Part shown: positions 3,297 through 51,821 of the stretch, in pieces
How the letters are laid out: every line of letters starts with the position of its first letter
Numbering within the stretch: the stretch's first letter is position 1
DNA from: Amycolatopsis viridis
GTDB taxonomy: Bacteria > Actinomycetota > Actinomycetes > Mycobacteriales > Pseudonocardiaceae
DNA length: 64,000 bases
Direction of reading: 5' to 3'
NCBI RefSeq assembly: GCF_011758765.1
Contig: NZ_JAANOU010000001.1
Location: 1,860,001 to 1,924,000, forward strand
Program-made: the position numbers and the translations under genes
Notes under the pieces: model-generated
What the model was told of the DNA's origin: nothing
The model's input: the letters and a program-made list of their open reading frames with translations, nothing else
The model's database searches: none

Positions 3297-3923
3297 GCTC
3301 GCGTCGTGATTCTGGACTACGGATCGGGGAACCTGCGCTCCGCCGAGCGCGCTGTGCGGCGCGTCGGCGCCGAGGTCGAGGTGACCGCCGACCCGCATGC
3401 GGCGCTCGAAGCCGACGGCCTCGTCGTACCGGGCGTGGGCGCCTACGCGGCCTGCATGGCCGGTCTGCTGTCCGTGGGCGGCGAGAAGATCATCGGCAGC
3501 CGGCTCGCCGGCGGACGGCCCGTGCTCGGAATCTGCGTGGGCATGCAGATCCTCTTCGAGCGGGGCGTCGAGCACGGCGTGGAGACCGCGGGCACGGGTG
3601 AGTGGCCCGGCACCGTGGAACGCCTGCACGCCGACGTCGTCCCCCACATGGGCTGGAACACCGTCCGCGCGCCGGCGGACTCGCAGTTGTTCGCCGGCCT
3701 GGACGCCGGCACGCGGTTCTACTTCGTGCACTCCTACGCCGCCCGGCGCTGGGAGCTCGACTCCGGCCTGCCGGGCCAGCAGCCGAAGGTGACGTGGTCG
3801 CACCACGGTGAGGACTTCGTCGCAGCCGCCGAGAACGGGCCCCTGTGGGCGACGCAGTTCCACCCCGAGAAGTCCGGCGACGCGGGCGCCCACCTGCTGG
3901 AGAACTGGCTGCGCACCCTGTGA
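3294..3923 (+). CDS. hisH: Imidazole glycerol phosphate synthase, glutaminase subunit HisH
   Basis: Class I glutamine amidotransferase that releases ammonia from glutamine and channels it to HisF for step five of histidine synthesis. The 209-residue product has the catalytic nucleophile C81 in GICVGMQ and the His/Glu pair in FHPEKSG (H190, E192). The oxyanion-strand region PGVGAY, typical of HisH, is also present. Length is normal. It leads the segment hisH-priA-(unrelated genes)-hisF-hisI; hisB, hisC and hisD are not in the window. The GTG start is supported by the leaderless promoter directly upstream. Confidence 0.97.
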
Positions 3924-3976
3924 GACGGGTCCTGCCCGGGCCCGTACCCTCCGGCCGGCGCAACCCCGTTGCTCCT

Positions 3977-3991
3977 TATAGTGGCCGCGTG
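3977..3991 (+). promoter_or_regulatory. Leaderless promoter of priA
   Basis: TATAGT (3977-3982) lies 6 bp before the GTG of priA. This near-consensus -10 sits in the 65-bp gap after hisH, so priA can be transcribed on its own. Confidence 0.6.
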
Positions 3992-4729
3992 ACGTTCACC
4001 CTGCTTCCCGCTGTCGATGTGGCCGATGGCCAGGCCGTGCGTCTCGTCCAGGGCGAGGCCGGCACGGAGACCTCCTACGGCAGCCCGCTGGAGGCGGCCC
4101 TGGCCTGGCAGCGCGACGGCGCCGAGTGGATCCACCTGGTCGACCTCGACGCCGCGTTCGGCACGGGTGACAACCAGGAGCTGATCTCCCGCGTGGTCGG
4201 CGAGCTGGACGTCCAGGTCGAGCTCTCCGGCGGCATCCGCGACGACTCCTCCCTGGCGGCCGCGCTCGCCACCGGCGCCCGGCGCGTCAACCTGGGCACC
4301 GCCGTGCTCGAAGATCCGGAGTGGACCGCCAAGGTGATCGCCGCCTACGGTGACCGCGTCGCGATCGGGCTCGACGTGCGCATCACCGAGCAGGGGCACC
4401 GGCTCAAGGGCCGCGGCTGGACCAGCGATGGCGGTGACCTGTGGGAGGTCCTGGAACGCCTGGACCGCGACGGCGCCGCCCGCTACGTGGTCACCGACGT
4501 CAGCAAGGACGGCACCCTCCAGGGCCCCAACCTCGACCTGCTCGCCGAGGTCGCCGCCCGCACCGACGCGCCGGTGATCGCCTCCGGTGGGGTGTCCAGT
4601 TTGGACGACCTGCGTGCGCTGGCGGGCCTGGCGCCCGACGGGGTGGAGGGCGCCATCGTCGGCAAGGCCCTCTACGCCGGGGCGTTCACCCTGCCGGAAG
4701 CCCTCGCCGCGGTCAGCCCGCGAGCCTGA
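3989..4729 (+). CDS. priA: Phosphoribosyl isomerase A, bifunctional HisA/TrpF
   Basis: A (beta-alpha)8-barrel of 246 residues. Actinobacterial PriA isomerises both ProFAR (histidine pathway) and phosphoribosylanthranilate (tryptophan pathway). The first catalytic aspartate lies in [10 protein letters not shown] and the second in the [15 protein letters not shown] strand. The phosphate loops LSGGIRD and IASGGVSS are intact, and the GRGWTSDGG loop is characteristic of PriA rather than plain HisA. No trpF is present near trpEC BA, which fits the dual role. The start is fixed by TATAGT 6 bp upstream. The last 17 bp overlap the convergent PPOX-like gene. Confidence 0.96.
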
Positions 4730-24500: not shown

Positions 24501-26127
24501 GGTGTACCCGTGGATCGCGCGCACCCGGCACTCCACGCCGGGCGTGGGGCTGATTTCGCCGCCGCCGCACCACGACATCTACTCGATCGAGGACCTGGCG
24601 CAGCTGATCCACGACCTGAAGAACGCCAACGAGCAGGCCCGCATCCACGTGAAGCTGGTCAGCTCGCTCGGCGTCGGCACCGTCGCCGCGGGTGTGTCCA
24701 AGGCGCACGCGGACGTGGTGCTGATCTCCGGTCACGACGGCGGCACCGGCGCCTCGCCGCTGAACTCGCTCAAGCACGCGGGCACGCCGTGGGAGATCGG
24801 CCTGGCCGAGACCCAGCAGACCCTGATGCTGAACGGCCTGCGCGACCGCATCACCGTCCAGGTCGACGGTGCCATGAAGACCGGCCGCGACGTCGTCGTC
24901 GCGGCACTGCTCGGCGCCGAGGAGTACGGCTTCGCGACCGCGCCGCTCATCGTCGCGGGCTGCATCATGATGCGCGTCTGCCACCTGGACACCTGCCCGG
25001 TCGGCGTCGCGACGCAGAACCCGGACCTGCGCAAGCGCTACACCGGCCAGGCCGAGCACGTGGTGAACTACTTCCGGTTCGTCGCGCAGGAGGTCCGCGA
25101 GCTGCTGGCCGAGCTGGGCTTCCGCACCCTGGACGAGGCGATCGGCCGGGCCGACGTGCTGGACACCGACGAGGCCGTGCACCACTGGAAGGCCACCGGG
25201 CTGGACCTGACGCCGATCTTCGAGATGCCTGCCGACACCCCGTACGGCGGGGCGCGGCGCAAGATCCGCGAGCAGGACCACGGCCTCGAGCACGCGCTGG
25301 ACCGCACGCTGATCCAGCTGTCCGAGGCCGCGCTGGAGGACGCCCACCCGGTCCGGCTGGAACTGCCGGTGCGCAACGTCAACCGCACCGTCGGCACGCT
25401 GCTGGGCTCGGAAATCACCCGCCGCTACGGCGGGGAGGGCCTGCCCGACGGCACGATCCACATCCGGCTCACCGGATCGGCGGGGCAGTCGCTCGGCGCG
25501 TTCCTGCCCCGCGGCGTCACGCTGGAGATGGTCGGGGACGCCAACGACTACGTGGGCAAGGGCCTGTCCGGCGGGCGCATCATCGTGCGCCCCGACCCGG
25601 ACGCGACGTTCGCCGCCGAGCGTCAGGTCATCGCCGGCAACACGCTGGCCTACGGTGCGACCGCGGGGGAGATGTTCCTGCGCGGCCAGGTGGGCGAGCG
25701 GTTCTGCGTACGCAACTCGGGCGCCGTCGTCGTCGCCGAGGGCGTGGGCGACCACGCCTTCGAATACATGACCGGCGGCCGCGCGGTGGTGCTCGGCCCG
25801 ACCGGACGCAACCTCGCCGCGGGCATGTCCGGCGGCATCGGCTACGTCCTCGACCTCGACCAGGGCAACGTCAACGGCGAGATGGTCGAGCTGCTCCCGC
25901 TGGAGCCCGAGGACCTGAACTGGTTGAAGGACATCGTGACCCGTCACCACGAACTCACCCGCTCGGCGGTCGCCGCGTCGCTGCTCGGCGACTGGCCGCG
26001 CCGCTCGGCGAGCTTCACCAAGGTGATGCCGCGCGACTACAAGCGCGTGCTGGAGGCGACCAAGGCCGCCAAGGCCGCCGGGCGGGACGTCGACGAGGCG
26101 ATCATGGAGGTGGCGTCTCGTGGCTGA
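21541..26127 (+). CDS. gltB: Glutamate synthase (NADPH) large subunit
   Basis: A 1528-residue GOGAT alpha subunit that transfers the amide of glutamine to 2-oxoglutarate, giving two glutamates. Domains in order: class II amidotransferase with nucleophile C22 ([11 protein letters not shown]) exposed after propeptide removal, and [10 protein letters not shown] and HNGEINT; central domain; FMN-binding synthase domain with [10 protein letters not shown] and [10 protein letters not shown]; [3Fe-4S] cysteines C1141, C1147 and C1152 in [12 protein letters not shown]; and the C-terminal GXGXG beta-helix. AAGGAGG lies 7 bp before the ATG. It overlaps gltD by 8 bp. Confidence 0.98.
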
Positions 26128-27628
26128 CCCCAAGGGCTTCCTGAAGTACGAGCGGGTCGAGCCGCCCAAGCGCCCCAAGGCGCACCGCGCCGAGGACTGG
26201 CGCGAGGTCTACGCCGACCTCGAACCGGCCGAGCGCGACCAGCAGGTGCGCACGCAGGCCACCCGCTGCATGGACTGCGGCATCCCGTTCTGCCACTCCG
26301 CGGGTTCCGGCTGCCCGCTGGGCAACCTGATCCCGGAGTGGAACGACCTGGTGCGCCGCGGTGACTGGGCCGCGGCGAGCGACCGCCTGCACGCGACCAA
26401 CAACTTCCCGGAGTTCACCGGGAAGCTGTGCCCGGCGCCGTGCGAGGCCGGCTGCACGCTGTCCATCTCGCCCCTGTCCGGGGGCCCGGTCGCGATCAAG
26501 CGCGTCGAGGCGACGATCGCGGAGAAGTCGTGGGAGCTGGGCCTGGCCCAGCCGCAGGTCGCCGAGGTGGCCAGCGGTCAGCGCGTGGCCGTGGTCGGGT
26601 CCGGCCCGGCCGGGCTGGCCGCCGCCCAGCAGCTCACCCGCGCCGGGCACGACGTGACGGTGTTCGAGCGGGACGACCGGCTCGGCGGGCTGCTGCGCTA
26701 CGGCATCCCCGAGTTCAAGATGGAGAAGAAGCACCTCGACCAGCGCCTGGCCCAGCTCAAGAAGGAGGGCACGCAGTTCGTCACCGGCTGCGAGGTCGGT
26801 GTCGACATCACCGTCGAGGAGCTGCGGGCGCGCTACGACGCGGTCGTGCTCGCGGTCGGCGCGCTGCGCGGCCGGGACGACACCACCACGGCGGGACGGG
26901 AGCTCGCGGGTATCCACCTGGCGATGGAGCACCTGGTGCCGGCCAACAAGCAGTGCGAGGGCGACGGGCCGTCGCCGGTCCACGCGCACGGCAAGCACGT
27001 CGTGATCATCGGCGGTGGGGACACCGGCGCCGACTCCTACGGCACCGCGATCCGCCAGGGCGCCGCGTCGGTCACCCAGCTGGACCAGTACCCGATGCCC
27101 CCGTCGACCCGGGACGACGACCGGTCGCCGTGGCCGACGTGGCCGTACGTGCTGCGCACCTACCCGGCGCACGAGGAGGGCGGCGAGCGGAAGTTCGGCG
27201 TCGCCGTGCGGCGGTTCGTGGGCGACGAGAACGGGCACGTCCGCGCGATCGAGCTGCAGCAGGTCAAGGTCGTCAAGGACCCGGAGACCGGGCGTCGCGA
27301 GGTGGTGCCGGTCTCCGACGAGATCGAGGAGATCCCGGCCGACCTGGTGCTGTTCGCGATCGGGTTCGAGGGCGTGGAGCACATGCGGCTGCTCGACGAC
27401 CTGGGCATCTCGCTGACCCGCCGGGGCACCATCTCGTGTGGTCCGGACTGGCAGACGGAGGCCCCCGGCGTGTTCGTCTGCGGCGACGCGCACCGCGGCG
27501 CGTCCCTGGTGGTGTGGGCGATCGCGGAAGGCCGCTCGGTGGCCCACGCGGTGGACGCCTACCTGACCGGCGCGTCCGACCTGCCGGCACCGGTCCACCC
27601 GACCGCGCTGCCCCTCGCGGTGGTCTAG
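26120..27628 (+). CDS. gltD: Glutamate synthase (NADPH) small subunit
   Basis: A 502-residue FAD protein that passes electrons from NADPH through two [4Fe-4S] clusters to the large subunit. The N-terminal cluster ligands are C50, C53, C58 and C65 ([17 protein letters not shown]) with the second set in [13 protein letters not shown] loop [12 protein letters not shown] lies near residue 155 and NADPH loop [11 protein letters not shown] near 295. The C-terminal [17 protein letters not shown] closes the FAD site. GTG start inside gltB. The gene is followed immediately by the first 21-bp repeat array. Confidence 0.97.
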
Positions 27629-27670: not shown

Positions 27671-27921
27671 AGCCAATACACCGCCCGGACCAGCCAACAC
27701 ACCGCCGGGACCGGCGAACACGCCGCCCGGAGCGGCGAACACGCCGCCCGGACCGGCGAACACGCCTTCCGCAGCGGCGAACACGCCTTCCGCAGCGGCG
27801 AACACGCCGCCGCGGCGTGTTTGCTGCTCGTCGCGCCGTGTTTGCCGGCCGGGGCGGCGTGTTGGCTGCTGGTGGCGGCGTGTTGGCTGCTGGTGGCGGC
27901 GTGTTGGCTGTTGGGGGCGGG
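27671..27921. repeat. 21-bp repeat array 1, 7 forward and 5 inverted units
   Basis: Between gltD and the DAHP synthase gene, a 21-bp unit with core GCGAACACGCC is repeated. AACAC cores (first two degenerate) start at 27675, 27696, 27717, 27738, 27759, 27780 and 27801, an exact 21-bp step. The array then flips: GTGTT cores start at 27817, 27838, 27859, 27880 and 27901. The two halves meet at a dyad centred on 27811 that is symmetrical for 10 bp on each side. Outer units on both sides read CCAACAC or GTGTTGG while inner ones read CGAACAC or GTGTTTG, so the halves are matched for pairing. No gene lies in 27629-28036. Confidence 0.9.
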
Positions 27922-27985: not shown

Positions 27986-29428
<1,443 letters not shown>

Positions 29429-38770: not shown

Positions 38771-39433
38771 ATGCGTGCGATTTACCGAACACTCGACCCT
38801 CGCCTGATGCGCGACGTGGCGCTGGTGGCGCTGGCGGACGGCGTCGTCGGCGTGTCCTACGGCGCCATCAGCACCGGATCCGGGTTCGGCTGGTGGCTCC
38901 CGGTGGTGATGTCGCTGCTGGTGTTCGCCGGGGCCGCCCAGTTCCTGTTCGTCGGGCTGGTGGCCGCCGGGGGCAGCCCGTTCGCGGCGGCGGTCGCCGG
39001 CCTGCTGGTCAACAGCAGGCTCCTGCCGTTCGGCATGGCGGTCAGCGACGTGCTCCGCGGCCGGGGACGGGTGCTCGGCAGCCACCTCCTGACCGACGAG
39101 GACGTCGCCTTCGCCCTCGCCCAGGAGGATCCGGGGCGCCGCCGCACCGCGTACTGGGCGTGCGGTATCTGCATCTTCCTGTGCTGGAACCTCGGCGTGG
39201 TGGTCGGCGCCTTCGCGGGCACCGTCATCGGGGACACCGACGCGTTCGGCCTGGACGCCGCGTTCCCCGCCGTGCTGCTCGCGCTGGTGCTGCCGTCGCT
39301 GCGAGACAGCCGGACCCGGCGGGCTGCGCTGGCCGGAGCGGTGGTCGCGCTCGCCGTGACGCCGTTCCTGCCCGCGGGTCTGCCGGTGCTGCTCGCGCTC
39401 ACCGGGGTGCTCGTGCTGGTGGTGCGGCGATGA
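38771..39433 (+). CDS. azlC: Branched-chain amino acid exporter, large subunit AzlC
   Basis: A 220-residue membrane protein of the AzlC/YgaZ family with about six or seven hydrophobic segments. Recognisable parts are DVALVALADGVVGVSYGAI, the conserved LLVFAGAAQFLFVGLVAAGG, and NSRLLPFGMAVSDVL. With AzlD it exports valine, leucine or isoleucine-like compounds. The start follows a promoter almost directly, and the stop overlaps azlD in ATGA. Confidence 0.9.
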   Translation: MRAIYRTLDPRLMRDVALVALADGVVGVSYGAISTGSGFGWWLPVVMSLLVFAGAAQFLFVGLVAAGGSPFAAAVAGLLVNSRLLPFGMAVSDVLRGRGRVLGSHLLTDEDVAFALAQEDPGRRRTAYWACGICIFLCWNLGVVVGAFAGTVIGDTDAFGLDAAFPAVLLALVLPSLRDSRTRRAALAGAVVALAVTPFLPAGLPVLLALTGVLVLVVRR

Positions 39434-39741
39434 CCATCCTGATCGGGATCGCGGTGCTCGCGGTCGGCACCTTCGCGTTCCGGATCGCCGGGCCGGCGTT
39501 GCAGGCCCGGATCCAGATCCCGCCCAAGGTGCAGAACCTGATGACGATCGCGGCGGCCGTCCTGCTGGTCGCGGTCGTGGCGACGCAGGCACTGACCCAG
39601 GGCCACTCGTTCGCCGGGTTCGCCCGTCCGGCCGGTGTCGTGGTCGGCGGCGTGCTGGCCTGGCGGAAGGCACCGTTCCTGGTGGTGGTCGTGGCCGCAG
39701 CCGCGGTCACCGCCCTGCTGCGACTGGCCGGCGTGCCCTGA
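39430..39741 (+). CDS. azlD: Branched-chain amino acid exporter, small subunit AzlD
   Basis: A 103-residue membrane protein with four hydrophobic segments; GIAVLAVGTFAFRIAGPAL at the start and WRKAPFLVVVVAAAAVTALLR at the end match AzlD/YgaH. It is coupled to azlC by a 4-bp overlap and completes the exporter. The gene is followed by 110 bp of unremarkable DNA and then repeat array 2. Confidence 0.88.
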   Translation: MTILIGIAVLAVGTFAFRIAGPALQARIQIPPKVQNLMTIAAAVLLVAVVATQALTQGHSFAGFARPAGVVVGGVLAWRKAPFLVVVVAAAAVTALLRLAGVP

Positions 39742-39850: not shown

Positions 39851-40259
39851 ACGCCAACACGGCGCGCGGACGGGCAAACACGCCGCGCGGACGGGCCAAC
39901 ACGGCGCGCGGACGGGCCAACACGGCGCGCGGGAGGGCAAACACGCCGCCCGGACGGGCAAACACGGCGCGCGGGAGGGCAAACACGCCGCGCGGACGGG
40001 CCAACACGGCGCGCGGACGGGCCAACACGGCGCGCGGGAGGGCAAACACGCCGCCCGGACGGGCCAACACGGCGCGCGGGAGGGCAAACACGCCGCCCGG
40101 ACGGGCCAACACGGCGCGCGGACGGGCCAACACGGCGCGCGGGAGGGCAAACACGCCGCCCGGACGGGCAAACACGGCGCGCGGGAGGGCAAACACGAAG
40201 ATGCGGCGTGTTTGCTGCTGCGGGCGGCATGTTTGCTGCTCCGCGCGGTGTGTTTGCCG
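39851..40259. repeat. 21-bp repeat array 2, 17 forward and 3 inverted units
   Basis: Between azlD and the convergent LysR gene. Forward AACAC cores run from 39856 to 40192 in exact 21-bp steps (17 units, typically GGACGGGCCAACACGGCGC or GGAGGGCAAACACGCCGCC). Inverted cores follow at 40208, 40229 and 40250. The distance across the flip (AACAC start to GTGTT start) is 16 bp, the same as in array 1. Units 3-17 form a 105-bp block of five units present three times (39882-39986, 39987-40091, 40092-40196) with few changes. Every 21-bp unit is seven codons, so long meaningless Arg-Ala-Asn-Thr frames run through it. Confidence 0.95.
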
Positions 40260-40472: not shown

Positions 40473-41321
40473 CTAGCCGTGCAGGCGGCCGGCCTCGGCG
40501 CGGATCGCCTCGGACAGTGCGGCCGTCGGGCCGGTCGCCGCGCGCGTGCTCAGCTGGAACTGCACCTCGCCCGGATCGGGCAGTCCGTGGCCGGGTGGCA
40601 GTTCCGCCAGCCCGGCCGGCACCAGGCTGCGGGCGAACACCGCGACCCCGAGCCCGGCCAGCGCCGCCGCGCGCAGGCCGTTCAGGCTGCCGCTCGTGCA
40701 CACGATCCGCCACGGCTTCCCGTTGTCCCGCAACGACTCCAGTGCCCTCGCACGGGTGATGCTCGGCGGCGGGTAGGCGATCAGCGGCACCGGCTGGCCC
40801 GGCTCCGGGGTGAAGCCCTCGCGGCCCACCCACACCAGCGGGTCCGTCCACAACGGACTTCCCGTCTCGTCGCCCGCGCGTTTCTTGCCCAGCACCAGGT
40901 CCAGCTCACCCCCGCGCAGTTTCTCGTACAGCACACCGGAGAGGTCCACGGTCAGCTCGAGGTCCACCAGCGGGTGCAGCCGCCGGAACTCGCGCAGGAT
41001 CTCGGGCAGCGGCCCGACCACGAAGTCCTCCGACGCGCCGAACCGCACCCGGCCGCGGAGCTCCGGCCCGGTGAAGTAGGCCAGCGCCCGTTCGATGTCG
41101 TCCAGGATCGTTCCGGCGAACCCGATCATCGCCTCGCCGTCCGGGGTGAGCTCGACCGAGTGGGTGTCGCGCAGCAGGAGCTGCTGCGCGGTGGCGTCCT
41201 CGAGCTTGCGCACGTGCTGGCTCACCGTCGACTGCCGCAGCCCCAGTCGCTGGGCGGCGCGGGTGAAGCTGCGGGTTTCGGCCACGGTGAGGAACGTCCG
41301 CAGCCACACGGGGTCCAGCAC
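40473..41321 (-). CDS. LysR family transcriptional regulator
   Basis: A 282-residue regulator. The N-terminal winged helix is WLRTFLTVAETRSFTRAAQR, then LGLRQSTVSQHVRKLE, and the substrate domain begins near residue 90 (GRVRFGASEDFVVGPLPEIL). I start it at a GTG with GGAGG 4 bp upstream (MLDPVWLRTF); a longer in-frame version adds 15 unlikely residues. It is divergent from an SBF-like transporter gene 85 bp away and probably controls it in response to the transported compound. Confidence 0.88.
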   Translation of the reverse strand: MLDPVWLRTFLTVAETRSFTRAAQRLGLRQSTVSQHVRKLEDATAQQLLLRDTHSVELTPDGEAMIGFAGTILDDIERALAYFTGPELRGRVRFGASEDFVVGPLPEILREFRRLHPLVDLELTVDLSGVLYEKLRGGELDLVLGKKRAGDETGSPLWTDPLVWVGREGFTPEPGQPVPLIAYPPPSITRARALESLRDNGKPWRIVCTSGSLNGLRAAALAGLGVAVFARSLVPAGLAELPPGHGLPDPGEVQFQLSTRAATGPTAALSEAIRAEAGRLHG

Positions 41322-43386: not shown

Positions 43387-45048
43387 ATGGGTGTGCACCA
43401 GATCTGTGACCGGTTCGTCGAGGACTTCGCCGCCGCGCACCCGGTCGCGGCGACCGAGCTGGGCATCCCCGGCTACGACGACCAGCTGACCGACTACTCG
43501 CCGGAAGGTCACGCCGCCCGCGCCGCCCTGGCACGACGGGCACTGGCCGCGGTCTCGGCTGCGGAACCGGCCGACCCCGGGGAGCGCGCCGCGAAGGCGG
43601 TCTTCACCGAGCGGGTCGGGCTGGACGTGGAGATCCACGAGGCCGGCCTGGACCTCGCATCGCTCAACGTCATCGCCAGCCCGGTGCAGGAGCTGCGCAT
43701 GGTGTTCGACCTCATGCCCGCGGACACGCCCGAGCAGTGGTCGGTGATCGCGCGGCGCCTGGCGAAGGTGCCGCAGGCGGTGGACGGCATCCGCGCCTCC
43801 CTGCTCGCCGCCGTCGAGGCGGGCAACCCGCCCGCTCTGCGCCAGGTCACCAAGGTGGCCGAGCAGGCCGAGACGTGGGCCGGGCTGTCCGGGGAAACCG
43901 GGTTCTTCGCCAACCTCGTCTCCGGGGCGCCGGAGGGCGCCGTGCGCGCCGACCTCGACCGCGGGGCCCGCGCCGCCCAGGAGGCGTACGCCGAGCTGGC
44001 CGGGTTCCTCCGCGCCGAGCTCGCGCCGAAGGCCCGCGTGAAGGACGCGGTCGGCGAGGACGCCTACCGCTTGTGGTCGCGGTACTTCATCGGTGCGCGG
44101 CTCGACCCGCGCGAGTCCTACGAATGGGGCTGGGCCGAGTTCCTGCGGCTGGAAGCCGAGATGAAGGCCGTCGCCGGACGCATCGCCCCGGGCGGCACGC
44201 TCGCCGACGCCGCCGCCGTGCTGGACGCGAACCCGCGCTACCAGGTACAGGGCCGTGACGCCTTCGCGCGGTGGATGCAGGAGCTGTCCGACACCGCGCT
44301 CGCCGAGCTGCGCGGCAAGCACTTCGACATCCCGGACCCGCTGATGGCGCTGGAGTGCCGGATCGCCCCGCCGGGCGGGGGCGCCGGCGCCTACTACACC
44401 GGCCCCAGCGAGGATTTCACCCGTCCCGGCCGGATGTGGTGGTCGCTGCCGCCCGGCCGCGACGAGTTCACCACCTGGCGTGAGGTCAGCACCGTTTACC
44501 ACGAGGGCGTGCCCGGGCACCACCTGCAGATCGCGACCGCCGTGCACGAGCGGTCGCTGAACCGGTTCCAGCGGCTGATGGCCTTCACCTCCGGCCACGG
44601 CGAGGGCTGGGCTCTCTACGCCGAGCGGTTGATGCAGGACCTCGGGTACCTCGCGGACGACGGCGATCTGCTCGGCATGCTCTCCGAGCAGCTGTTCCGC
44701 GCCGCGCGGGTGATCGTCGACTTCGGGATGCACCTCGAGCTGGAGATCCCGGCGGGCACCGGGTTCCACGAGGGCGAGCGCTGGACGCCCGAGCTGGGCC
44801 TGGAATTCATGCTCACCCGCACGATCACCGACGAACCGCTGGTGCGCGACGAGATCAACCGCTACCTCGGATGGCCCGGGCAGGCTCCGGCGTACAAGCT
44901 GGGGGAGCGGCTGTGGATCGAGGCACGCGAGGACGCCCGCAAGCGCCAGGGTGACCGCTTCGACCTGAAGGACTTCCACACGAAGGCACTCCGCCTCGGC
45001 GGCATGGGCCTGGACACGCTGCGCGAGCAGCTGGCCGAACTGGACTGA
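43387..45048 (+). CDS. DUF885 family putative metallopeptidase
   Basis: A 553-residue cytosolic protein without a signal peptide. The DUF885 family carries an HEGxPGH motif, here HEGVPGHHLQ at residues 372-381, which together with a downstream Glu (GHGEGWALYAERL) resembles a zinc-peptidase active site. Sequence is strongly helical and acidic. A few relatives act as carboxypeptidases or dipeptidases, but most are uncharacterised. TAGGTT lies 7 bp before the ATG. It may be expressed with metF, 31 bp upstream, though it has its own promoter-like element. Confidence 0.85.
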   Translation: MGVHQICDRFVEDFAAAHPVAATELGIPGYDDQLTDYSPEGHAARAALARRALAAVSAAEPADPGERAAKAVFTERVGLDVEIHEAGLDLASLNVIASPVQELRMVFDLMPADTPEQWSVIARRLAKVPQAVDGIRASLLAAVEAGNPPALRQVTKVAEQAETWAGLSGETGFFANLVSGAPEGAVRADLDRGARAAQEAYAELAGFLRAELAPKARVKDAVGEDAYRLWSRYFIGARLDPRESYEWGWAEFLRLEAEMKAVAGRIAPGGTLADAAAVLDANPRYQVQGRDAFARWMQELSDTALAELRGKHFDIPDPLMALECRIAPPGGGAGAYYTGPSEDFTRPGRMWWSLPPGRDEFTTWREVSTVYHEGVPGHHLQIATAVHERSLNRFQRLMAFTSGHGEGWALYAERLMQDLGYLADDGDLLGMLSEQLFRAARVIVDFGMHLELEIPAGTGFHEGERWTPELGLEFMLTRTITDEPLVRDEINRYLGWPGQAPAYKLGERLWIEAREDARKRQGDRFDLKDFHTKALRLGGMGLDTLREQLAELD

Positions 45049-45240: not shown

Positions 45241-45244
45241 CCCG

Positions 45245-45333
45245 GTGTTGGCCGTTGCGGTCGGCGTGTTTGCCGTTCCGGTTGGCGTGTTTGCTGCTCC
45301 GGTTGGCGTGTTTGCCGCTCCGGCTGGCGCGCT
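45245..45333. repeat. 21-bp repeat array 3, inverted-orientation units only
   Basis: GTGTT cores start at 45245, 45266, 45287 and 45308, with a degenerate GCGCT at 45329, an exact 21-bp step. The common unit is GGCGTGTTTGCYGYTCCGG. All units have the orientation seen in the second half of arrays 1 and 2, and no forward half or dyad is present. It lies between the DUF885 gene and a DMT exporter gene on the same strand. Confidence 0.88.
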
Positions 45334-45482
45334 GCCCATCCGGCGCCGCGCTCGCTCGGGCAGCACGGCGGCACGAGCCTGGCGGCGGTAGTGCGGTAGC
45401 AACTCCCATCGCGCCGTTCCCGGCGCACGCGTCGCCCCGCGTCGACGGTCATCATCCGTTTCCGATGCTGGAGCGACTTGTC

Positions 45483-46376
45483 ATGTCTGTTTCCCTCGAC
45501 GCGCCCGCGCGTACCCGATCGACTCTCACGCTTCTGCTCGCCGGTCTCCTGTGGGGCACCGGCGGCCTGTCCGGGTCGCTGCTCGCCGCCCGCGCCGGGC
45601 TGCACCCGATTTCCGTTGCCACGTACCGGTTGCTGGTCGGCGGTGCGGTGGTCGTGCTGTTCCTCGCGCTGACCGGTGGCCTCCGCGGAACGGTCTGGAC
45701 CAGGGCGGTCGTCCGCCGGATCGCGGTCGCCGGCGGGCTGCTCGGCTCGTTCCAGGCGACCTACTTCGCCGCGGTCGGCCTGTCCTCGGTCGGCACCGCG
45801 ACCATGGTGACCATCGGCAGTGTGCCGGTGTTCGTCACGGTCGCCCTGGCGATCCGGTCGCGCCACCTGCCGCGGCCGGCGACCCTGCTGTCGGTCGCCC
45901 TCGCGCTGGCCGGACTGGTGCTCCTGTCCGCCGGTCCCGGCCACTCCGGCTGGCGGCTGGCCGCCGGCGTTGCGTTCGCCCTGCTCGCGGGGGCCGGGTT
46001 CGCCACGCTGACGTTGGTCCTGCGCCGCCCGGTCGTGGGCCTGGACCACCAGCGCACCACGGCGTTCGGCTTGCTGGCCGGTGGCGTCCTGCTCCTGCCG
46101 GCGGCGCTGGTCCTCGGCATGGCGCTGCCGTTGCGGATCGACGTCCTCGCCGTCGCGCTCTACTTCGGCGTCGTGCCGACCGGGCTGGGCTACGCGGCCT
46201 ACTTCCGGGTCCTCGGCGCCGCGTATCCGGTCGTCGCGGCGCTCGCGACCCTGCTGGAACCGCTGACCGCCGCGATCCTGTCCGCGGTTGTGCTGCACGA
46301 GGACCTCGGCGTCCAGGGCTGGTGCGGCGCCGCGCTGCTGGCCACCGGCCTGCTGGTGGGCTACCTGCGGTCCTGA
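45483..46376 (+). CDS. EamA/DMT family transporter
   Basis: A 297-residue exporter-type protein with ten hydrophobic segments in two EamA halves: LLLAGLLWGTGGLSGSLLA opening the first, and GVAFALLAGAGFATLTLVLR the second. GVVPTGLGYAAYFRVLGAAY is the usual near-C-terminal signature. GGAG lies 9 bp before the ATG; another ATG six codons upstream is possible. Substrates of this family are often amino acids or metabolites. The last 16 bp overlap the convergent GNAT gene. Confidence 0.88.
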   Translation: MSVSLDAPARTRSTLTLLLAGLLWGTGGLSGSLLAARAGLHPISVATYRLLVGGAVVVLFLALTGGLRGTVWTRAVVRRIAVAGGLLGSFQATYFAAVGLSSVGTATMVTIGSVPVFVTVALAIRSRHLPRPATLLSVALALAGLVLLSAGPGHSGWRLAAGVAFALLAGAGFATLTLVLRRPVVGLDHQRTTAFGLLAGGVLLLPAALVLGMALPLRIDVLAVALYFGVVPTGLGYAAYFRVLGAAYPVVAALATLLEPLTAAILSAVVLHEDLGVQGWCGAALLATGLLVGYLRS

Positions 46377-51320: not shown

Positions 51321-51821
51321 TCACCGGCTCCAGAACCAGTCCTTGTCCCGGGCCTGTTTGAGTGCCTCCCGCTTGCGGTCCTTGTCGAGCCGGTCCAGGT
51401 AGAGCGTGCCGTCGAGGTGGTCGACCTCGTGCTGCAGGCACTGCGCCAGCACGCCCTTGCCCTCGACGGTGACCGGCTCGTTGCGCAGGTCGACGCCGCG
51501 CACCACCGCGCGGGTGGCGCGCCGCGTGGGGAACCACAGCTCCGGCACCGACAGGCAGCCCTCGTTGATCTCGTGCGTCTCGTCGGACAGCTCCACGATC
51601 TCGGGGTTGATCACGTACCCGAACAGGTTGTCCACCTCGTAGCTGAACACCCGCAGGCTCACACCGATCTGCGGCGCCGCCAGCCCCGCGCGTCCGTCCG
51701 GCCGCACAGTGTCCAGCAGGTCGGTCACCAGCTGCTCGAGCCCCTTGTCGAACCGCGTCACGGGGTCGCAGACCGTCTTGAGCACCGGGTCGCCGAAGTA
51801 CCGCAGCTCCCGTAACGCCAT
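51321..51821 (-). CDS. def: Peptide deformylase
   Basis: A 166-residue metalloenzyme removing the formyl group from nascent proteins. All three motifs are intact: GLAAPQIG, EGCLSVP (metal cysteine) and QHEVDHLDG (metal histidines and catalytic Glu). GAGAGGA lies 7 bp before the ATG. fmt is not adjacent. In the leader, CTCACTCG can pair with CGAGTGAG that abuts the ribosome site. Its stop lies near two tandem copies of GGGGCCGGGC. Confidence 0.95.
   Translation of the reverse strand: MALRELRYFGDPVLKTVCDPVTRFDKGLEQLVTDLLDTVRPDGRAGLAAPQIGVSLRVFSYEVDNLFGYVINPEIVELSDETHEINEGCLSVPELWFPTRRATRAVVRGVDLRNEPVTVEGKGVLAQCLQHEVDHLDGTLYLDRLDKDRKREALKQARDKDWFWSR

Follow-up and report, generated by a model that had tools for sequence, protein, structure and literature searches.

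The intergenic repeat arrays described here form a family that is dispersed over the genome of Amycolatopsis viridis (G000, one contig of 5,684,261 bp), and we propose, with a probability of about 0.5, that they are phased sites for a putative DNA-binding protein, with an architectural or insulating role where transcription units end. The initial annotation of the window, i.e., the whole 64-kb stretch of DNA that was analyzed, had reported three such arrays (27.67-27.92, 39.85-40.26 and 45.24-45.33 kb) with exact repetition at 21 bp; all three are present at these places, and the step is 21 inside every arm (Table 1). The pattern GCNRACACG-N12-GCNRACACG has 26 matches in the window, compared with a mean of 0.00 and a largest count of 0 in 100 dinucleotide shuffles. 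Furthermore, arrays 1 and 2 are two-armed, i.e., consist of direct repeats, a 9-bp hinge and then the inverted unit, an organization absent from that annotation; array 3 is a single arm with units in the inverted orientation only, and in the genome G010 the corresponding gene end (DUF885) carries a two-armed array.

Table 1. Arrays of the 21-bp unit and the adjoining genes in the 64-kb window (positions of the window).
Feature	Position	Strand	Description
gltD-like gene (Fer4_20, Pyr_redox_2)	26120..27628	+	3' end adjoins array 1
Array 1, forward arm	27672..27806	+	7 cores, 21-bp step; outer two are variants
Array 1, forward core starts	27672, 27693, 27714, 27735, 27756, 27777, 27798	+	
Array 1, hinge	27807..27815	.	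9 bp
Array 1, inverted arm	27816..27908	-	5 cores, 21-bp step
Class II DAHP synthase gene	28034..29428	+	downstream of array 1, tandem
azlD	39430..39741	+	3' end adjoins array 2
Array 2, forward arm	39853..40197	+	17 cores, 21-bp step; 105-bp higher-order repeat
Array 2, hinge	40198..40206	.	9 bp; identical in sister genome G001
Array 2, inverted arm	40207..40257	-	3 cores, two are variants
LysR-type regulator gene	40473..41321	-	convergent with azlD across array 2
DUF885 gene	43387..45048	+	3' end adjoins array 3
Array 3	45244..45315	-	1 variant and 3 strict cores, inverted orientation
EamA transporter gene	45465..46376	+	downstream of array 3, tandem

Genome-wide, the strict core pair GSMRACACG-N12-GSMRACACG, with its 21-bp step, is found 207 times in G000 (113 and 94 hits), and the reversed-pattern control yields none. 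The proposal of a dispersed repeat family is thus borne out far beyond the three arrays originally reported, and absence of arrays elsewhere, which had been named as an outcome that would speak against such a family, is not what was found. The core followed by an inverted core within 30 bp occurs 55 times in this genome, some of these pairs being nested within one array, and the opposite arrangement of facing cores occurs 3 times, with 0 matches in the controls. Single facing core pairs inside called genes number two in all, and neither is a 21-bp array. The 21-bp consensus derived from 86 arms and 446 units of the G000 loci, with up to two core mismatches allowed, is GC[ACG]AACACGCCGCCCGGAGCG, which is not a palindrome. 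Selection of these loci relied mostly on the hinge (39 loci with a hinge, one without and the window), so that two-armed arrays are over-represented in the set, 11 other unhinged loci being left out. In G000 arrays (e.g., L059, L060 and L062), degeneracy rises away from the hinge, and core position 3 is A close to the hinge and shifts to C with distance from it; in G001, G is favoured at this position (11 two-armed arrays).

Twenty-one base pairs amount to two turns of the double helix. In 16 array-rich genomes, which were picked for richness at step 21, core triplets occur 2177 times at this step (overlapping matches) versus 22 times over 100 combinations of steps 11-20, with a control count of 14. 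Neighbours in the same orientation within 130 bp number 545; of these, 445 are spaced at 21, 28 at 42, 8 at 63 and 2 at 84, with 2 at 22 and 1 at 20; steps greater than 21 were checked within the fetched loci only. In G310, a genome of another genus, 161 of the 162 neighbours are at step 21. The core is also retained where the rest of the unit has changed. In spacer-diverged units, which are unlike the left neighbour in at least 4 of 15 spacer positions and were picked solely for exact cores on both sides, core identity is 0.97 in G000 (67 units), 0.984 in G010 (42) and 0.992 in G185 (42), with spacer identity of 0.65, 0.66 and 0.64, respectively. A weaker second conserved patch (unit positions 12, 14 and 17-18) lies approximately one turn from the core. 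A word that is kept while the unit drifts is evidence of recognition, be it by a protein or by an enzyme that copies the units, and a fixed helical step together with a conserved word is the organization that characterizes a phased array of protein-binding sites.

The geometry of the hinge appears to follow the helix as well. In 85 two-armed arrays (42 from G000, 11 from G001 and 32 from G010, the latter drawn from 31 hinges and one 120-kb region, among the matches listed), the gap between the arms is 2-3 bp in 15 cases, 9-13 bp in 67, and 23, 31 and 32 bp in one case each; gaps of 4-8 bp were not found among the 85, and the start-to-start distances are 11-12, 18-22, 32, 40 and 41. Since hinge distances 21 apart might only mean skipped units, the firm statement is that there are two registers; these are 8.7 and 9.7 bp apart, which is near but not exactly 10.5, and none is in antiphase. 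All 34 hinges of G310 lie at 6, 15-16, 25-27, 37, 46 or 69, with R of 0.93 at 10.5 bp and a best fit at 10.25; its nine distinct hinge values give R of 0.89, and 14 non-array pairs give 0.20. Two other genomes of g16 contribute three hinges, at 26, 6 and 46. In the first genus, hinge phasing is weaker (R 0.68). Taken together, the specificity of the step, the core kept despite spacer divergence and hinge registers approximately one turn apart support the earlier claim that the cores face one side of the helix.

The arrays are found between genes, mostly at 3' ends, a placement that, like the inverted arms and the dialects of other genera described below, was not part of the initial annotation. 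For 160 arrays or arms (42 from G000, 33 from G010, among the matches listed, 13 from G001, 28 from G185 and 44 from G310), the context is convergent in 82 cases, tandem in 69 and divergent in 9 (the divergent assignment of L058 is uncertain), with 0 genic, gene calls being those of a codon-usage caller and not curated. The background of intergenic regions of at least 100 bp, array regions included, is 21 convergent, 73 tandem and 43 divergent in G001, and 34, 88 and 53, respectively, in G185; the corresponding background of the G310 loci (24, 28 and 15) comes mostly from array regions and hence is not independent.

Given these observations, we infer that the arrays bind a protein, in which case one 21-bp unit would be one site, spanning two helical turns, for a sequence-specific DNA-binding protein, and head-to-tail units would place successive protein molecules along a single face of the DNA. 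Many Amycolatopsis-type genomes would then have pairs of these strips facing each other, kept in register by an intervening hinge of approximately one or two turns. Located between genes and mostly at the 3' ends of transcription units, the strips would most likely be architectural or insulating elements, possibly acting at the end of transcription as a roadblock or as an anchor that resists supercoiling; this effect of binding, insulation or roadblock, is speculative. The protein-binding element suggested in the initial annotation therefore stands as the best inference from the step, the core conservation and the hinge registers, and the protein itself was not found in a search that covered the RAYT domain only. 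If a protein does bind, a family of antibiotic-producing actinomycetes would possess tens to hundreds of undescribed helix-phased gene-end sites, and it would become possible to test directly for a boundary function of sites between convergent genes of high-GC bacteria.

The strongest rival of the protein-site reading, which we nevertheless consider rather unlikely, is selfish copying: an enzyme that recognizes the core, or slippage combined with template switching, would copy and spread the 21-bp units, and 3' ends would be merely the places where they are tolerated. The comparison with the sister genome G001, which is syntenic with G000 over the window, with long blocks of 95 to 98% DNA identity, bears on this scenario in two ways. 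On the one hand, tandem expansion is apparent, with 17 forward cores in G000 versus 3 in G001 at the azlD locus, and neighbouring units within an arm resemble each other, as copying would predict. On the other hand, when eight G000 array loci (gltD, azlD and six more) were looked up in G001, the array was retained at the same gene end in all 7 comparable loci (L062 has no flank in the stretch examined), which speaks against a spreading element, nor would such an element be expected to produce hinge registers one turn apart. The hinge is identical between the two genomes at azlD and different at other loci. Unit number varies between orthologous loci, and the 21-bp step stays constant in G001, so that the drift of the period that had been named as a possible refutation was not seen.

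The DUF885 locus has an array in G000, G001 and G010 and none in G003, G013 and G017, and the tree pairs G010 with G003; filled and empty sites compared by eye revealed no clean insertion or target duplication. At the 3' end of gltD, G003, G005, G010 and G017 (L093, L089, L094 and L090) have hairpin terminators of the ordinary type that end in an AT-rich tail, and the downstream gene there differs from that of the array-bearing G000 and G001. Some close relatives have no arrays and others hundreds, a patchiness that would be surprising in an essential architectural system and counts in favour of the selfish scenario, as does the absence of genic arrays among those placed; indeed, a selfish element that is tolerated would likewise be expected to stay clear of genes and promoters. 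However, the RAYT domain (Y1_Tnp, PF01797) is absent in 18 of the 19 genomes of the genus, including G000, with a positive E. coli control. The sole match in the genus is partial (G012:C9:97357-97464). Both RAYT-driven mobility and intrinsic termination fit the observations poorly.

Termination or protection at the RNA level, with the transcribed arms pairing as long hairpins that would end transcription or shield mRNA 3' ends, is an improbable alternative. Its appeal comes from the location of the arrays just past stop codons (median distance of 37 bp in G000 and 40 bp in G001; 180 bp in G010, among the matches listed), from strong predicted folding if the two-armed arrays are transcribed (z of -10.75 and -6.18; a third value is -2.03), and from the presence, in relatives lacking the array, of an ordinary hairpin where the gltD or DUF885 gene ends. 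Non-array hairpins (stem score of at least 10; intergenic regions of more than 600 bp or with fewer than 80 unmasked bases excluded) are present at 2 of 13 array-bearing versus 23 of 64 other 3' ends in G185, 5 of 27 versus 12 of 47 in G000, and 4 of 13 versus 7 of 30 in G010; the lower share at array-bearing ends in G185 would fit arrays replacing ordinary terminators.

The pairing predicted by such hairpins is not significantly supported, however. There is no symmetric pairing signal in G000 (match at position 3 of 0.38 for symmetric, 0.37 for asymmetric and 0.35 for between-array comparisons), and the innermost cores agree in 23 of 42 arrays in G000 (p 0.13), 21 of 32 in G010 (p 0.056, a borderline excess over expectation that was counted against the protein-site reading; the first G010 list appeared covariant by eye and this is the outcome of the permutation test) and 3 of 11 in G001 (p 0.89). 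The complementarity of hinge ends does not exceed that of shuffled ends, and the best loop lengths (4-8) are exactly those that are missing. The long-hairpin model was examined through the matching of symmetric pairs, the complementarity of the hinge and the length of the loop, and was rejected as unsupported in G000 and not significant in three genomes. Furthermore, no arm among the 28 of G185 faces an inverted arm across a hinge-sized gap, i.e., these arrays are one-armed, and they show no transcription polarity: 5 arms are sense and 7 antisense in tandem contexts, or 11 and 16 when convergent contexts are included and assigned by the nearer gene. This lack of alignment with transcription in G185 favours an action through DNA over one through RNA. 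Terminator-like sites are at the chance level (6 found versus 4.0 expected in the region, two of them inside arrays), and an Rfam scan of the window gave 0 matches above the gathering score.

Finally, a neutral minisatellite, i.e., functionless 21-bp tandem repeats arising by slippage, would account for the fast change in unit number and for the higher-order repeat in array 2 but is very improbable, given the core retained despite spacer divergence, the near-exclusive step of 21 and the sharing of this step and a related core by other genera.

Returning to the reading of the arrays as phased protein sites, several known systems offer partial parallels. The REP/BIME elements are dispersed, extragenic, located at 3' ends and between convergent pairs, present in both orientations and lineage-specific, and have RAYT transposases and an imperfectly palindromic unit. 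The arrays share the dispersed, extragenic and mostly 3'-terminal location, both unit orientations and the lineage differences, but lack the two defining features, a RAYT in the genome of G000 and a palindromic unit; moreover, their head-to-tail step is strictly 21 bp, and those of G185 are single-armed. Iterons of plasmid origins are direct repeats of ~20-22 bp, or two turns, with the Rep protein bound on one face; the arrays likewise are ~21-bp direct repeats spanning two turns but, unlike iterons at an origin, are spread over dozens of chromosomal loci. DNA uptake sequences are short words with dialects that form inverted terminator pairs at gene ends; the arrays, which also consist of short words inverted at gene ends and differing in dialect, are unlike them in being tandem and phased, with none genic among those placed. 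The Sal-box arrays of rDNA, bound by TTF-I, form a eukaryotic roadblock behind a transcription unit; here a protein-site roadblock behind a transcription unit would be an analogy of working only, the Sal-box being eukaryotic, confined to a single kind of locus and of another motif. The TAACTGA direct repeats of Beggiatoaceae (PMC4679880) form many intergenic sets with a patchy distribution and a putative binder, for which a post-transcriptional role has been proposed. The arrays resemble them as patchily distributed intergenic sets of a short direct repeat and differ in the word and in having a 21-bp step at 3' ends versus a location just upstream of start codons. Thus, the arrays appear closest to BIMEs in distribution, to iterons in geometry and to the TAACTGA repeats in kind. 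We found no description of the 21-bp unit in the open-access PMC full-text literature, nor any mention of Amycolatopsis or Pseudonocardia in the available portion of the RepRanger paper (PMC12306157). The kind, dispersed extragenic repeats, is known; there is a real chance that the system behind the arrays is new.

Relatives within Pseudonocardiaceae share the 21-bp architecture and differ in core "dialects." The strict core pair matches, very unevenly, in 15 of 61 genomes (G000 and 60 relatives), and an AACWCG triplet at step 21 matches in 75 of 297 genomes of the family and 21 of 46 genera; at least 10 matches are found in 36 of the 297 genomes, in 10 genera, the others having fewer, some of them coding-like, and most reversed controls have no match (the maximum is 29, in G174). 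For example, G012, which is devoid of the strict core pair, has arms of GGAACTCGC at 21 bp around GGGGACACGCC-N7-GGCGTGTCCCC (six loci), and the dialects are AACTCGCGTGATTGAAGGCGT in g16 and GCAACACG, with varied spacers, in g55. The same geometry under a changed word in G012, g16 and g55 was counted in favour of the protein-site reading, and if a protein binds, these genus dialects would be a natural experiment in protein-site co-evolution. We consider it possible, at somewhat less than even odds, that this is a Pseudonocardiaceae system in which a putative protein lines 21-bp sites at transcription-unit ends, the word drifting by lineage and the two-turn geometry remaining fixed, i.e., a bacterial array-type insulator or roadblock without a described counterpart. 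A second 21-bp dialect, of the GCGAGTCCC type, occurs alongside AACACG arrays in G010 (51427-51472 and 115311-115432) and also in G013 (3854-4006).

Outside Pseudonocardiaceae, there are almost no matches in a phylum draw of 396 genomes, where only G000 is array-rich and 16 other genomes have hits, 15 of them one or two; a GAACTCG 7-bp microsatellite (G628:C3:22806-22916) accounts for 11 false hits to the 21-step pattern in this draw. A four-unit pattern recovered 24 stretches in named genomes, namely 12 in Amycolatopsis acidicola, a member of Pseudonocardiaceae, 2 in A. alkalitolerans, 3 in Saccharomonospora sp. CUA-673 and 7 in distant taxa; the latter (L170, L173, L177, L180, L184, L186 and L192), mostly MAGs, contain 21-bp tandem repeats. 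Another array pattern gave 0 matches in viral contigs, and a three-unit pattern matched a single viral contig, L275 (IMGVR_UViG_3300025652_005113, 560-610). Assembly also seems to be interrupted at arrays, as several contigs of G009 start within one.
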